A stretch of 64,000 bases of DNA from Gemmatimonadota bacterium. GTDB lineage: Bacteria > Gemmatimonadota > Gemmatimonadetes > Gemmatimonadales > Gemmatimonadaceae. A model generated the notes under the pieces. It ran no database searches. It was not told the origin of the DNA and saw only the letters and a program-made list of their open reading frames with translations. A program made the position numbers and the translations under genes. The stretch spans positions 62,001 to 126,000 of the forward strand of contig JAQBQB010000014.1 in assembly GCA_028287235.1 (NCBI GenBank). The letters run 5' to 3'. Below are positions 28,527 to 58,689 of the stretch, piece by piece; within the stretch, counting starts at the first letter, position 1; the number at the start of each line of letters is the position of its first letter.

Positions 28527-28567
28527 GTGCCCATTCGCATCGCGGACACGACCCAGAACAAGAGTTT

Positions 28568-28619
28568 GTCCGTGCTTTGTCAGTCTTGTCCGTGCGTGTC
28601 CGTGCCAACGCTGTTGCGG
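28568..28619. repeat. Solo arm of the GTCCGTGC palindromic element
   Basis: GTCCGTGC occurs several times in about 50 bases and the run ends GTGTCCGTGCCAACGCTGTT. This closely matches the right arm of the complete element at 37825-38085 (AGTCCGTGCTAACGCTGTTG). No matching left arm or inner hairpin is visible, so it looks like a truncated copy. It fills the gap between two convergent genes. Confidence 0.6.
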
Positions 28620-30458
28620 TCAAGGCAGTTGCAGTACCGGCAATTCAATCCGCGACGCCTGCGCGCGAGAGTGATAGACACGCTGCGTCGCCTTCTGGAA
28701 ATCCGACGCCGCCGCATTGTAGATGTCCACGAACGTCTGCGGATTCCGATCCACCAGCGGAAACCAGCTGCTCTGCACGTGCACCATGATCCGGTGCCCC
28801 TTCTTGAACGTGTGCAGCACATCGTCCGTTCCGAACGCCACTTTCGCTGGCTGGTTGGGCACGAACGCCTCAGGACGCGCGTAGCTGTTCCTGAACTTTC
28901 CGCGCATCGCGTCGCCGCGCACGAGCTCCTGAAAGCCGCTGCTGGGATCGACGTCGATCAGCTGCACGATCCAATCGCTGTCCGTGCCGCTCGTGGAGAC
29001 GAACAGCTCGGGCCGCACCGATCCGGCAACGGTGAGATCCGCCGCGAGCGGCTCGCTCGTGTAGACCAGAACGTCGGGCCGTCCGGCGGTGAAGCGCTGG
29101 TCGTGCGCCATGTAGTCCGGCTTCATGCCCGTGTTGTGGTCGGCGAGGAAGGGAACAGGGTTCGCCGGGTCGCTCACGTACTGGTCGTAGCCCAATCCCT
29201 CGGCGCCGGCGGGTGGCGCGAACGACAGCGTGCCGCCGGCGTGCAGGTAGAGTGACCGAGTGGGCGCCGCTTTGGGAGGCCAGGCGTCGAACGTGCGCCA
29301 GCGGTTGCTCCCCGTCTCGAACATCGTGGCATTGGGGAGCGTGAGCGTTCCCTCATTCTCGAGATAGTAGGCGAAGAACGGGAACTCGATGCTGTCGCGG
29401 AAGAACTGTCCCGTGGCGGAGCCGAAGTGCAAGTCGCCGAGCGCGTCGCCGGGTCCGCGGCTCCACTGTCCGTGCGACCATGGGCCCACGACGATACGGT
29501 TCGAGGTCGCCGCGCTCTGGCGAGCGATGCTCTCGTGGACGAGCAGCGCGCCATGCAGGTTGTTCGCGTCGTACCATCCGCCCACGGTGAGCACGGCGGG
29601 CGTAACGTTCTTCAGGTGCGGCGCGATGCGGCGCGCTTGCCAGAACGCGTCCTCGGTGCCGTGGGCCATCATGTCGTTCCAGAAGGGCGCCGCGCCCTTC
29701 AGGTACATGCGGTCCGCGTTCGACAGCGGTCCCATGGCGAGGAAGAACGCATACCCGTCGTCCGTTCCATAGCTGAACGGGCGCGGACGCTCGGCGGTCG
29801 GGCTGGGGCGCGCGAGGCCGCTCGTGGTGAAGAAGTTGAACGCGCTCGTGAGCCAGAACGCGCCGTGATGGTGCACGTCGTCGCCCATGAACCAGTCGGC
29901 CTGCGGCGCTTGCGGCGACGCGGCCTTTAGCGCGGGGTGCGCGTCGACGAGCGCCGCGGCGGTGAAGAAGCCGGGATAGGAGATGCCCCACATGCCCACG
30001 CGCGCGGTGTTGCGTGGAACGTGCGTGAGGAGCCAATCGATGGTGTCGTAGGTATCGGTGCTTTCGTCCACGGCCGCGGCTCCGGCCATACCGCGCCACG
30101 GCGTCATGTGCACGAAGTCTGCTTCGGACATGAATCGGCCGCGCACGTCCTGATACACGAAGATGAACCCGGCGTCGGCGAACCGCGGCGACGGTCCGAG
30201 CGCGCGAGGATAGGCGTCGGGTCCGTATGGCCCCGCGCTGTACGGCGTGCGCGACAGCATGATGGGGTAGCGCCGCGTCGTGTCGCGCGGCGTGTAGACC
30301 GCGGTGAACAAGCGCTTGCCGTCGCGCATCGGAATCTGGTACTCGGTCTTGGCGTAGTGCTGGCGCAAGAACGCCGAGTCCGGCGCGGTGCCTCGCTGGG
30401 CGACGAGAGGCGAGGCCACGGCCAGCGCCAGCAGTACGACGGAAAGACGGTTGCGCAT
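28620..30458 (-). CDS. Secreted CocE/NonD-type alpha/beta hydrolase (X-Pro dipeptidyl-peptidase S15-like)
   Basis: 612 residues from ATG 30458, preceded by GAGAGG; the frame extends upstream but without a signal. The signal peptide is MRNRLSVVLLALAVASPLVA. The catalytic triad is visible: Ser160 in WGISYPGF, Asp297 in GGWYDANN and His329 in GPWSHGQW. The N-terminal alpha/beta domain is followed by a C-terminal jelly-roll (SEPLAADLTVAGSVRPELFV). The family (Pfam S15 plus C-terminal X-Pro domain) covers cocaine esterase, glutaryl-7-ACA acylase and X-Pro peptidases, so the substrate is an ester or amide not defined here. It lies 11 bases downstream of the GNAT gene and is a paralogue of the hydrolase at 31534. 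Confidence 0.9.
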   Translation of the reverse strand: MRNRLSVVLLALAVASPLVAQRGTAPDSAFLRQHYAKTEYQIPMRDGKRLFTAVYTPRDTTRRYPIMLSRTPYSAGPYGPDAYPRALGPSPRFADAGFIFVYQDVRGRFMSEADFVHMTPWRGMAGAAAVDESTDTYDTIDWLLTHVPRNTARVGMWGISYPGFFTAAALVDAHPALKAASPQAPQADWFMGDDVHHHGAFWLTSAFNFFTTSGLARPSPTAERPRPFSYGTDDGYAFFLAMGPLSNADRMYLKGAAPFWNDMMAHGTEDAFWQARRIAPHLKNVTPAVLTVGGWYDANNLHGALLVHESIARQSAATSNRIVVGPWSHGQWSRGPGDALGDLHFGSATGQFFRDSIEFPFFAYYLENEGTLTLPNATMFETGSNRWRTFDAWPPKAAPTRSLYLHAGGTLSFAPPAGAEGLGYDQYVSDPANPVPFLADHNTGMKPDYMAHDQRFTAGRPDVLVYTSEPLAADLTVAGSVRPELFVSTSGTDSDWIVQLIDVDPSSGFQELVRGDAMRGKFRNSYARPEAFVPNQPAKVAFGTDDVLHTFKKGHRIMVHVQSSWFPLVDRNPQTFVDIYNAAASDFQKATQRVYHSRAQASRIELPVLQLP

Positions 30459-36473: not shown

Positions 36474-37799
36474 ATGCATCCCATGAGAACCCGGCCCTTC
36501 GCGGCGCTCGCCGCCGCGGCGCTCGTCGTTGCCGGCGCCGCGTGTCACACGTCGGATCTGCTCAACGTGCAGGCACCGAACGCGGTGAGCGTCAGCATCT
36601 ACGACAACCCGATCAACGCCACGCTGATGGTGAACAGCGCCATCGGCGACTTCGAGTGCGCGTTCGGCTCGTACGTCGTTGCCGAGGGCCTCGCGACCGA
36701 CGAGCTGCATGACGCAACGCTGGCGAACGGCGACTGGAATCTCGATCGCCGCGACAACGGCTTCACGAACGGTTTGTACGGGACCAACACGTGCACCACC
36801 GTCACCGGGATGTACACGCCGCTGTCCACCGCGCGCGGCGAGGCCGACGCGGCGGTGACGAGACTCGCGGGGTGGACCGTAGCACAGGTGCCGAACCTGG
36901 CCACGCTGCAGGCGCAGGCGAATCTGTACACGGGGTTCAGCTACTCCGCTCTGGGCATGGCGATGTGCCAGGCCGCGTTCGATCTCGGACCGCTCGTCGA
37001 CCAGCCCGGAATGTTCACGCTCGCCGAAGCGCGGTTCACCGCGGCGATCGCCGCCGCGCAGACCGCGGGCTCGACCAACCTCGCGACGGCGGCATACGCC
37101 GGCCGAGCGCGCGTGCGGCTTTTCCTGCACAATACGGCGGGCGCGATCGCCGACGCGCAGCTCGTGCCGCCCGGCTTCGTGTTCAACGCCGCGATGGACG
37201 CCACCAACGCGCGCCGCTTCAATCACGTCTACCAGGGCATCGCCACCGCCGGATCCGCCACGGTCGAAGTGACGGCGCGGGCGCTGACGACGGAGAATGG
37301 CGAGGTCGATCCACGATCGGCGACGACGCAGCTCAAGACCGTGCCACCCGACGGCCTGGCGACCATTTTCATCCCGACCAAGTACAACGCCGCGTCGCTC
37401 ACGGCGGGCGAGGCTCTTCCGATGCCGATCGTGCGCTACGCGGAGGCGCAGTTGATCCTGGCCGAAGCGCAGGGGGGCGCGAGCGCCGTCACGATCATCA
37501 ACGCGATGCGCGCCGCGGTGAGCCTCAAGCCGTACACCGGTGCGACGGACGCGGCGTCGATCACGAAGCTCATTACCAGCGAGCGCCAGCGCGTGTTATT
37601 CCTCGAGGGTACGCGCGGCTACGACATCGAACGCTTCAACCTGCCGCTCGTGCCGGCGGTGGGTGCGCCGTATCTCCAGGGTGGAGTATACGGGGGCACG
37701 GTGTGTCTCCCGCTTCCGGACATCGAGCGGTTCCACAATCCGAGCATCGACGCGAGCAAGTTGATCACGGGAGTGCAGGGGCAGTTTACGCCGCCGTGA
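36474..37799 (+). CDS. SusD/RagB-type substrate-capture lipoprotein
   Basis: 441 residues from ATG 36474, chosen because GAGGTGAT overlapping the SusC stop sits six bases upstream; ATG 36483 is also possible. The lipobox is VAGAAC in an Ala-rich signal. The mature protein is mostly helical TPR-like, with GFSYSALGMAMCQ, PMPIVRYAEAQLILAEAQ and the typical SusD ending ITSERQRVLFLEGTRGYDIERF. Such proteins form the lid of the SusC barrel and capture the ligand at the surface. The pairing with a secreted hydrolase suggests one substrate system. The palindromic element at 37825 begins 25 bases after the stop. Confidence 0.9.
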   Translation: MHPMRTRPFAALAAAALVVAGAACHTSDLLNVQAPNAVSVSIYDNPINATLMVNSAIGDFECAFGSYVVAEGLATDELHDATLANGDWNLDRRDNGFTNGLYGTNTCTTVTGMYTPLSTARGEADAAVTRLAGWTVAQVPNLATLQAQANLYTGFSYSALGMAMCQAAFDLGPLVDQPGMFTLAEARFTAAIAAAQTAGSTNLATAAYAGRARVRLFLHNTAGAIADAQLVPPGFVFNAAMDATNARRFNHVYQGIATAGSATVEVTARALTTENGEVDPRSATTQLKTVPPDGLATIFIPTKYNAASLTAGEALPMPIVRYAEAQLILAEAQGGASAVTIINAMRAAVSLKPYTGATDAASITKLITSERQRVLFLEGTRGYDIERFNLPLVPAVGAPYLQGGVYGGTVCLPLPDIERFHNPSIDASKLITGVQGQFTPP

Positions 37800-37824
37800 T
37801 CAGGGCTGCAGATTACAACAGCGG

Positions 37825-38085
37825 CAACAGCGTTAGCACGGACTGGACGGACACGGCACGGACACGACACTGAAACTGCGCGACGCCACGTCGCGCAACG
37901 AGCCGTGATTACTTGAGAACCGACGCTCGGGATGCTACTCGTGGCATCCCGAGCGTCGGTTCCAAAGAAATGGTCGTTTGGGCTCGTGGCGATCGGAACT
38001 GTCATTGCACGACCATTGCGCCCTTTCCGTGTCGTGTCCGTGCCGTGTCCGTGCCGTGTCCGTCCAGTCCGTGCTAACGCTGTTG
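37825..38085. repeat. Palindromic element with 42-bp perfect terminal inverted repeats (GTCCGTGC arms)
   Basis: The outer arms 37825-37866 and 38044-38085 are a perfect 42-bp inverted repeat (CAACAGCGTTAGCACGGACT ... inverse at the right end). In the middle is a 19-bp perfect stem (37917-37935 with 37944-37962, GAACCGACGCTCGGGATGC) with an 8-base loop. It is followed by TTCCAAAGAAAT and GGTCGTTTGGGCTCGT. It has no coding frame. The inner hairpin and tail recur in the element at 58341. It exactly fills the gap between the SusD-like gene and the convergent cytochrome/monooxygenase gene, so it may act as a terminator for both. Confidence 0.85.
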
Positions 38086-38092
38086 TCGCCGT

Positions 38093-39454
38093 TTACCGCG
38101 GCTGCACTCTCACCGGCTGCGCTTTCGCTTTCCGCACCGCCACCAAACTGTCGTACTCGGCCTGCTCGAGATACGTGACGTCGATCCAGTTGTGCGCCAT
38201 CTCGTCCACGGTGCGGTCGCCCCAGCCGATCCACTGATTCGGGTCGGGGTTGTTCGGGTTGCCCGCGGTGTTGTCGTGCCATGCGGTGAAGGCGAGCGTG
38301 GTGCCTTTCGGAAAGAGCGGCGCCACGGAGTCGGCGTAGATGTAGTTGACGTGCCAGTTCCACTGGAAGTTCCGTACGGCGCTCACGACTTCCTTGCGGC
38401 CGTCGGGATAGATCGCCTCGAGCGACATGGCGGTGCCGCGCATGTGCATGTGCGGCTGGAAATTCTCGAGCCGCGCCGGCGCCTGGAGCACGTAGAAGTT
38501 CTGCGTGATCGTCTTCTCGTTGGGCGGAATGTCGAGCTCCGAGTTCCGCGCCATGCTGAACATGGTGAGCACGGTGCGGTGCTTGGGGACGAACCCTTTC
38601 GGGTAGAAGTAGACGGCCAGCTCCACCTGGCTGTCCTTGAACTCCTCGCCGATCGCGTGCATGTGGATCTCCCAGCGAATCTTCGAGCCCGGGAGCATCA
38701 GCTTGCCCGCATCTTCGGCGAACACCTGGCCCGTTTTGCCGACGGCCCACTCCATGAACAGCCCGGCGTTGCCCTGATGGTCGTGCGCGGTGCTCGCCAA
38801 GCCCGTGATCTCGGGCTCGTCTTGCAGCAGATAGGCGAGCACGTGGTGGACGATCTTGCGGTCGTTGGCGCGCACCGGCTTCACCTCGATGGCGCGCACC
38901 CAGCGCGGCTCGGTGATTCCCGTTTCGACCGTAGGCCGGTACCACTTGTCCTGCGTGTGCGGCGCGAGCGTGTAGGGCGTCGAGCGAATGACGAGGTCGG
39001 GCTGCGCGCCCAACTTGTCGGCGAGCTGCCAGCGGTTGGGATCGGCGAACGTGCGCGCCGGCGGCAAGTCGGATAGGTCGCCGAGCGGCGCGCCGTCGTC
39101 GACCCAGTGGACGATGGACTGGATCTGCGCGTCGGTGAGGCTGCGGTCGTTCTTGAACGCCTGGATGCCGACGGTCTTGTCGATGTGCCAGGGCGGCATC
39201 AGGCGCGCCGAGACTTTCTGGCGGATCTGCGCCGAGTTTTCTTTCGCGTCCTCATATGAGAGAAGTGACATGGGCGCGATGGAGCCCGGCTGGTGGCACT
39301 CCTGGCATTTCGCCTGAAGGATGGGCGCGACGTCCTTGGCGTACGTCACCGCGCGGTGCGGTGTGGCGGCGACGTGGCGTGGCGCGACGAACAGCGCTGG
39401 GAGCGTAACGACCGCCAGGGCGACCGCGGCGATGGTGGGCGTGCGCAGGCTCAT
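38093..39454 (-). CDS. Cytochrome c / copper type II monooxygenase-like fusion protein
   Basis: 453 residues from ATG 39454, which overlaps the upstream stop as ATGA. Signal peptide about 1-30. The N-terminal heme domain has CQECH (Cys50, Cys53, His54). The C-terminal part resembles the two-domain core of ascorbate-dependent type II copper monooxygenases (PHM/DBH). Candidate copper ligands are His203-His204 (IVHHVLAYL), His264/His266 (WEIHMHAIG), His335/His337 (QPHMHMRGTAM) and Met419 (TVDEMAHNW). Characterised animal members receive electrons from ascorbate. A fused heme could replace that donor here (inference). The substrate is unknown; a non-catalytic copper or electron carrier is the alternative. 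Confidence 0.82.
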   Translation of the reverse strand: MSLRTPTIAAVALAVVTLPALFVAPRHVAATPHRAVTYAKDVAPILQAKCQECHQPGSIAPMSLLSYEDAKENSAQIRQKVSARLMPPWHIDKTVGIQAFKNDRSLTDAQIQSIVHWVDDGAPLGDLSDLPPARTFADPNRWQLADKLGAQPDLVIRSTPYTLAPHTQDKWYRPTVETGITEPRWVRAIEVKPVRANDRKIVHHVLAYLLQDEPEITGLASTAHDHQGNAGLFMEWAVGKTGQVFAEDAGKLMLPGSKIRWEIHMHAIGEEFKDSQVELAVYFYPKGFVPKHRTVLTMFSMARNSELDIPPNEKTITQNFYVLQAPARLENFQPHMHMRGTAMSLEAIYPDGRKEVVSAVRNFQWNWHVNYIYADSVAPLFPKGTTLAFTAWHDNTAGNPNNPDPNQWIGWGDRTVDEMAHNWIDVTYLEQAEYDSLVAVRKAKAQPVRVQPR

Positions 39455-46107: not shown

Positions 46108-46271
46108 ACTGCTTGGCACGGACAAAACCGACACGGCACGGACAAACACGGAAAAGCGTGACGCTCAGGACGCCACTACTCGCTTCCCGAGCGTCCGATC
46201 CCAAGAGAATTCTCGGTCACGTTTCCCCGTGCCATTCCGTGCCTTGTCCGGCCGTGTCCGTGCCAAGCAGT
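46108..46271. repeat. Palindromic element, GTCCGTGC arms, degraded copy
   Basis: Terminal 16-bp perfect inverted repeats ACTGCTTGGCACGGAC (46108-46123) and its inverse (46256-46271). The inner hairpin GACGCTCAGGA / TCCCGAGCGTC (46160-46170, 46185-46195) matches the inner stem of the element at 37825 with one mismatch in the stem. Arms are less regular than at 37825. It occupies the gap between the TonB receptor and the convergent gene ending at 46286. Confidence 0.75.
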
Positions 46272-58310: not shown

Positions 58311-58340
58311 AAAATATTTGGGCGTGGCGCGCGTACCGAT

Positions 58341-58632
58341 GCCATTAGGTCGGGACGAGCGCTGGGGGTTCGCGGATGACGCGGAAACCGCGAATCACGA
58401 CGGATCTTTCCATGTGGAGTGATGCCTCCGCGCGCAACGTGCCCGGACGAACGCTCTTATTGGGAACCGACGCTCGGGAGACCTCTAGTAGCATCCCGAG
58501 CGTCTGTTCCAAAGAAAATGTCGTCCGGGCTCGTTGCGCATGGAGCTGTCCCCGCGCATGGAGCGATCCGTTTTGATCCGCGGCAGCTTCCGCGTCATCC
58601 GCGAATCCCAGCAATCGTCCCGACCTATTGGC
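58341..58632. repeat. Composite palindromic element: GGTCGGGAC arms around a nested hairpin
   Basis: Outer arms of about 44 bases (GCCATTAGGTCGGGACGAGC on the left; reverse complement on the right GCCAATAGGTCGGGACGATT). The centre carries a nested stem GGAACCGACGCTCGGGA / TCCCGAGCGTCTGTTCC (58463-58479, 58494-58510; one mismatch) and the tail TTCCAAAGAAAATGTCGT. The stem and tail also occur inside the element at 37825, which has different outer arms. The stretch lies between convergent genes (58310 and 58690) and has no coding frame. Confidence 0.85.
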
Positions 58633-58689
58633 GTCGTTCCGCGACGCCCTCTCGCCTCCAGATCGCCGCCTCCGTCGCGGCGGGTTATG

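Follow-up and report, generated by a model that had tools for sequence, protein, structure and literature searches.

The window, a stretch of 64,000 nucleotides from a Gemmatimonadota bacterium (contig JAQBQB010000014.1), contains a non-coding palindrome of 277 bases at 37817-38093, located between two convergent genes. The left neighbour lies on the + strand and ends at 37799; from its open reading frame we take it to be a SusD-like gene. The right neighbour is on the - strand, with its stop codon at 38093-38095. In an earlier note on this DNA the palindrome was said to fill the convergent gap exactly; the gap is indeed convergent, but 17 bp are free on the left. The perfect inverted ends described there are borne out, as 37825-37866 and 38044-38085 are exact reverse complements over 42 bp, a length for which a base-composition model gives a chance expectation of about 1e-16 in 64 kb. 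At 92% complementarity the inverted repeat reaches 60 nt, which defines a left arm at 37817-37876 (+ strand) and a right arm at 38034-38093 (- strand), both of an arm type that we call type B. The best period of these arms is 11, and the right arm, in which an 11-bp unit is repeated in tandem, has one unit more than the left arm, extending to about 38020. The arms enclose a core at 37885-38012, and the separate central hairpin of the earlier note is found inside it at 37917-37962, with 19 perfect base pairs (37917-37935 / 37944-37962) and an 8-nt loop. There is no ORF in the window copy. The absence of a transposase also holds for this copy; elsewhere in the genome, the same arm carries a nuclease gene, see below.

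As single-stranded DNA, the 277 nt have a folding energy of -120 kcal/mol, compared with -57 (sd 4.1) for shuffled sequences, z = -15.5. The proposal that the palindrome is a two-way terminator is without support as far as an intrinsic terminator is concerned, as the stem has no T-run and a search of 37600-38300 for a G+C-rich stem-loop followed by a T-run found none. Known RNA families gave only sub-threshold miRNA noise, and an rRNA intervening sequence was rejected since the element is intergenic between protein genes, without an ORF and without an rRNA match. The ends of the element are GTTAGC-like, and integron attC sites were therefore considered; attC stems are imperfect.

The core (approximately 37885-38012) is matched at about 35 places in the 5.73 Mb genome, mostly within other arm types, while the type B arm is matched at about 10. 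The family is modular: one core sits within at least three arm types, i.e., type A (GGGACGATTCCGTCATTTTGTTCACGGATGACGCGGA...), type B as in the window copy, and type C (L081), and the type B arm also encloses other or minimal insides (L055 and L056). From reading the copies, the core is made up of CGCAACGAGCCCGGACGA, a TTTTCTTT-GGAACAGACGCTCGGGA hairpin and TCGTCCGGGCTCGTTGCG, and full copies are palindromes of 180-320 bp. The window itself contains a second element at 58326-58648, with type A arms around the core of the window copy, and a third at 46108-46271, with type B-like arms and a related core. A single-arm type B remnant lies at 28543-28620, where no palindrome was found. DNA matches occur in 5 of 118 genomes of the bacterial family, all five in the genus of the host, and as DNA the family is confined to the genus. 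No DNA match to a plasmid or phage that could carry the element was found. The Geobacter class 4 multicopy sequences were considered as the same thing and rejected, as their motif differs.

Comparison with congeners reveals empty sites. At L071 and likewise at L080, this genome carries the element and three congeners lack it, and the type B element at L051 corresponds to empty sites in G003 and G004. In G001 and G005, the convergent gap of L051, identified by the orthologue of the gene to its left, holds different, repeat-rich inverted sequences (L158 and L165), which suggests that this gap is an insertion hot spot. For the presumed insertion of the window copy no clean empty site was found, as its left gene is not syntenic in congeners. 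The earlier note proposed to compare the flanks for target-site duplications; none stands out above crossed pairs, with direct repeats at the ends averaging 3.72 versus 3.75 (25 copies, whose exact ends are uncertain), and the GGCTGCA heptamer that flanks the window copy on either side is no more than chance would give. Insertion into the loops of native terminator hairpins was also considered and rejected, as complementarity of the flanks past the arm ends, with conserved ends skipped, is not locus-specific (p 0.77 for type A at skip 18, p 0.54 for type B at skip 0).

MITEs are short, non-coding, intergenic sequences with inverted ends and multiple copies (review PMC10969869), and the element here resembles them in its terminal inverted repeats, its non-coding nature and its copy number. 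It could be a MITE of the classical kind, derived by deletion from an ordinary IS with the same terminal inverted repeats and moved by the transposase of that IS, which would cover the inverted ends, the multiple intergenic copies, the size of 180-320 bp and the empty sites in congeners. However, a target-site duplication is absent, no transposase lies between matching arms in the copies read, and the arms are periodic tandem arrays. We therefore consider this origin, in which the GxxExxY gene described below would be a passenger, unlikely.

Of 27 scored copies, 13 are in convergent gaps, 13 in codirectional gaps and one in a divergent gap, and at least one gene 3' end faces the element in 26. 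Most copies lie within about 50 bp of a stop codon; as a simple gene caller was used, these counts are approximate. Across 20 copies of type A, 94.4% of cells stay paired in the consensus stem, compared with at most 45% when it is slid, and 34 cells are double-changed versus 13.6 in shuffles, with the changes mostly in the arms. The arms in these copies co-vary, and arm identity is therefore maintained, which is equally compatible with selection on a folded form and with one arm serving as template for the other.

Such features could also be expected from a structural RNA or DNA element that is selected at gene 3' ends and has no present mobility, whether for transcript-end processing, as an RNase III substrate or as a supercoil buffer. 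The strong stem with its z-score, the compensatory changes and the near absence of copies from divergent gaps all fit such an element, while the lack of a T-run, the sites that are empty in congeners or filled by different palindromes in others, the restriction of the sequence family to the genus and the arms common to a nuclease gene do not. We judge it slightly less probable than the MITE. The location right after stop codons would allow a role in forming 3' ends or in RNase III processing, and 3'-end processing is a possible by-product. That the palindrome is an element is well supported, while its mobility is something we infer. The earlier reading as a mobile palindromic unit is supported by the many copies, the empty sites in congeners and the co-varying arms; neither a single copy nor arms without co-variation, either of which the note held to be fatal to it, was found.

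All four GxxExxY genes (TIGR04256 / PDDEXK_3) of the host genome were read with their flanks (L111-L114). The gene at L111 is flanked on both sides by the arm of the window copy, with 93% identity over 44 nt on the left and 87% over 38 nt on the right. Type A-like arms surround L113, the arms around L112 are peculiar to it, and L114 has weak ones, at control level. In the congener G004, a complete element with arm B and a core of the same kind lies upstream of a GxxExxY gene, about 100 bp away (L099). However, only these four genes stand against more than 40 non-coding palindromes in the host genome, and GxxExxY could be a passenger.

The arrangement is not limited to this genome. Among 78 usable GxxExxY loci from named genomes, the inverted repeats of the flanks score above 42 in 40, compared with 0 of 345 size-matched controls and 0 of 133 displaced windows (Fisher p ~1e-34). 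This threshold was set with crossed pairs, for which 42 is the 99% point; they make a strict control, since arms are similar from one genome to another. About half of the GxxExxY loci fall below it. The 40 loci above it represent at least nine phyla, including Gemmatimonadota, Acidobacteria, Planctomycetes, Bacteroidetes, Deltaproteobacteria, Neomarinimicrobia, Gammaproteobacteria, Cloacimonadota and Lentisphaerae/Kiritimatiellaeota. In most cases the arms consist of tandem units with a best period of 9-11 bp, and their polarity relative to the gene is identical in 44 of 44 loci, plus one tie. The arms of two genes from Gemmatimonadetes MAGs (L187 and L188) read much like arm B. At L124, L127, L129, L132 and L137, the repeats flanking the gene are themselves palindromes, so that the gene has whole non-coding elements on both sides. 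The upstream flank of the GxxExxY gene L231, from a Saprospiraceae MAG, contains an A+T-rich unit of 60-70 bp that ends in a TTTTGCTTCGCAAAA hairpin, in several near-identical copies one after another.

GxxExxY genes between periodic arms across phyla, with a fixed polarity, also argue against the MITE, and they bear on another explanation. Replication slippage together with template switching at palindromes might lengthen the arms in place and keep them identical, without a dedicated enzyme, with occasional recombination scattering the copies. The tandem units of the arms and the additional unit in the right arm are what slippage would leave, and template switching could give the arm identity. 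However, neither a core common to dispersed copies nor the fixed polarity of arms around a GxxExxY gene in many phyla is explained, and we find this the least probable of the alternatives.

All 37 aligned GxxExxY proteins match Pfam PDDEXK_3, with D66, E76, Q90 and Y94 invariant and K78 nearly invariant, residues that fit the D...ExK...QxxxY nuclease motif. An AlphaFold2 model (pLDDT 90.5) has SSO0001, a Cas4, and the LHK/lambda exonucleases as its best PDB neighbours; an archaeal Holliday junction resolvase ranks lower. GxxExxY is thus predicted to be a PD-(D/E)XK nuclease with a Cas4/lambda-exonuclease-like fold, a similarity at fold level only given TM-scores of about 0.5. The proteins are common in environmental bacteria, and no functional description of them was found in the open-access literature, where two papers name them without dealing with function.

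We suggest, with a probability of roughly 0.55, that the palindrome is a non-autonomous element which a GxxExxY nuclease mobilises or copies in trans, and which is tolerated just downstream of stop codons. The window copy and the GxxExxY gene at L111 have arm B in common, the copies are modular, and sites are empty in congeners. The family would consist of inverted arrays of ~11-bp units enclosing either a GxxExxY gene or a hairpin core. When the locus becomes single-stranded or is extruded, the arms could form a long hairpin or cruciform, and the nuclease may recognise the arm units, spaced at the helical period, and then nick or process this structure. Gene-bearing and gene-less copies would both spread in trans, with the arms kept identical, and new copies would persist mainly downstream of stop codons, since that is where they are least harmful. 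The role of the nuclease in spreading the palindromes is the conjectural part of this mechanism.

In the REPIN/RAYT system, non-coding intergenic palindromes in many copies are accompanied by a gene of single-copy type that has these palindromes on its flanks. The element here is similar in both respects; however, its partner is a PD-(D/E)XK nuclease and it is 180-320 bp long with periodic arms. A REPIN is ruled out, as Y1_Tnp (PF01797), the RAYT domain, has 0 matches in the host genome, while control genomes gave matches. The nearest described architecture is that of the 23S rRNA intervening sequences (IVS), in which complementary ends surround a small ORF and form a long stem that can be cleaved by RNase III (PMC4990558). 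The element here differs from an IVS in being intergenic rather than within rRNA, in that the window copy has no ORF, and in that the related ORF is GxxExxY and not a four-helix-bundle protein. No description of the GxxExxY/palindrome arrangement was found in the open-access literature, which makes the novelty provisional.

More generally, and only tentatively, as we hold it to be somewhat short of an even chance, the GxxExxY (PDDEXK_3) nucleases may act as the enzymes of a class of mobile palindromes that spans phyla and is so far undescribed. These nucleases would recognise inverted arms with a period of about 10 bp and move non-coding hairpin elements as well as their own gene, without a transposase or target-site duplication, and four-helix-bundle (IVS/Avd-like) genes with arms of ~7-bp units would form a sister class. 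For the first class we propose the name GxxExxY-associated palindromic elements; judged by sequence, the window copy would belong to it through its periodic arms and the arm it shares with a GxxExxY gene. Linking GxxExxY to periodic arms and to swarms of palindromes with the same arms suggests a role for these proteins that can be tested, and could account for a large class of intergenic repeats that still lack an explanation. The arrangement would be RAYT/REPIN-like with a Cas4-like nuclease as its basis, and there is a parallel to the long-standing puzzle of the rRNA intervening sequences.

The four-helix-bundle genes (PF05635; L115-L120 and L267-L295) are, as in an IVS, also enclosed by inverted arms, here of ~7-bp tandem units. 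A score of at least 33 is reached by 23 of 29 such loci, compared with 1 of 55 control windows, and the best period of the arms is 7, 8 or 14. These arms match the IVS architecture, and perhaps also the inverted heptamer repeats of Xanthomonas (GGGAATC), which are intergenic inverted pairs of short arrays of 7-bp tandem units, described as G-quadruplex repeats with no link to a gene (PMC4692102). The Xanthomonas repeats resemble the four-helix-bundle arms more than the element in the window. Beside some four-helix-bundle genes, in the downstream flank of L117 and both flanks of L118, there are long degenerate repeats of the CTCGAGCCTCGAG or GCTCGGTGCTCACAGCTCG kind.
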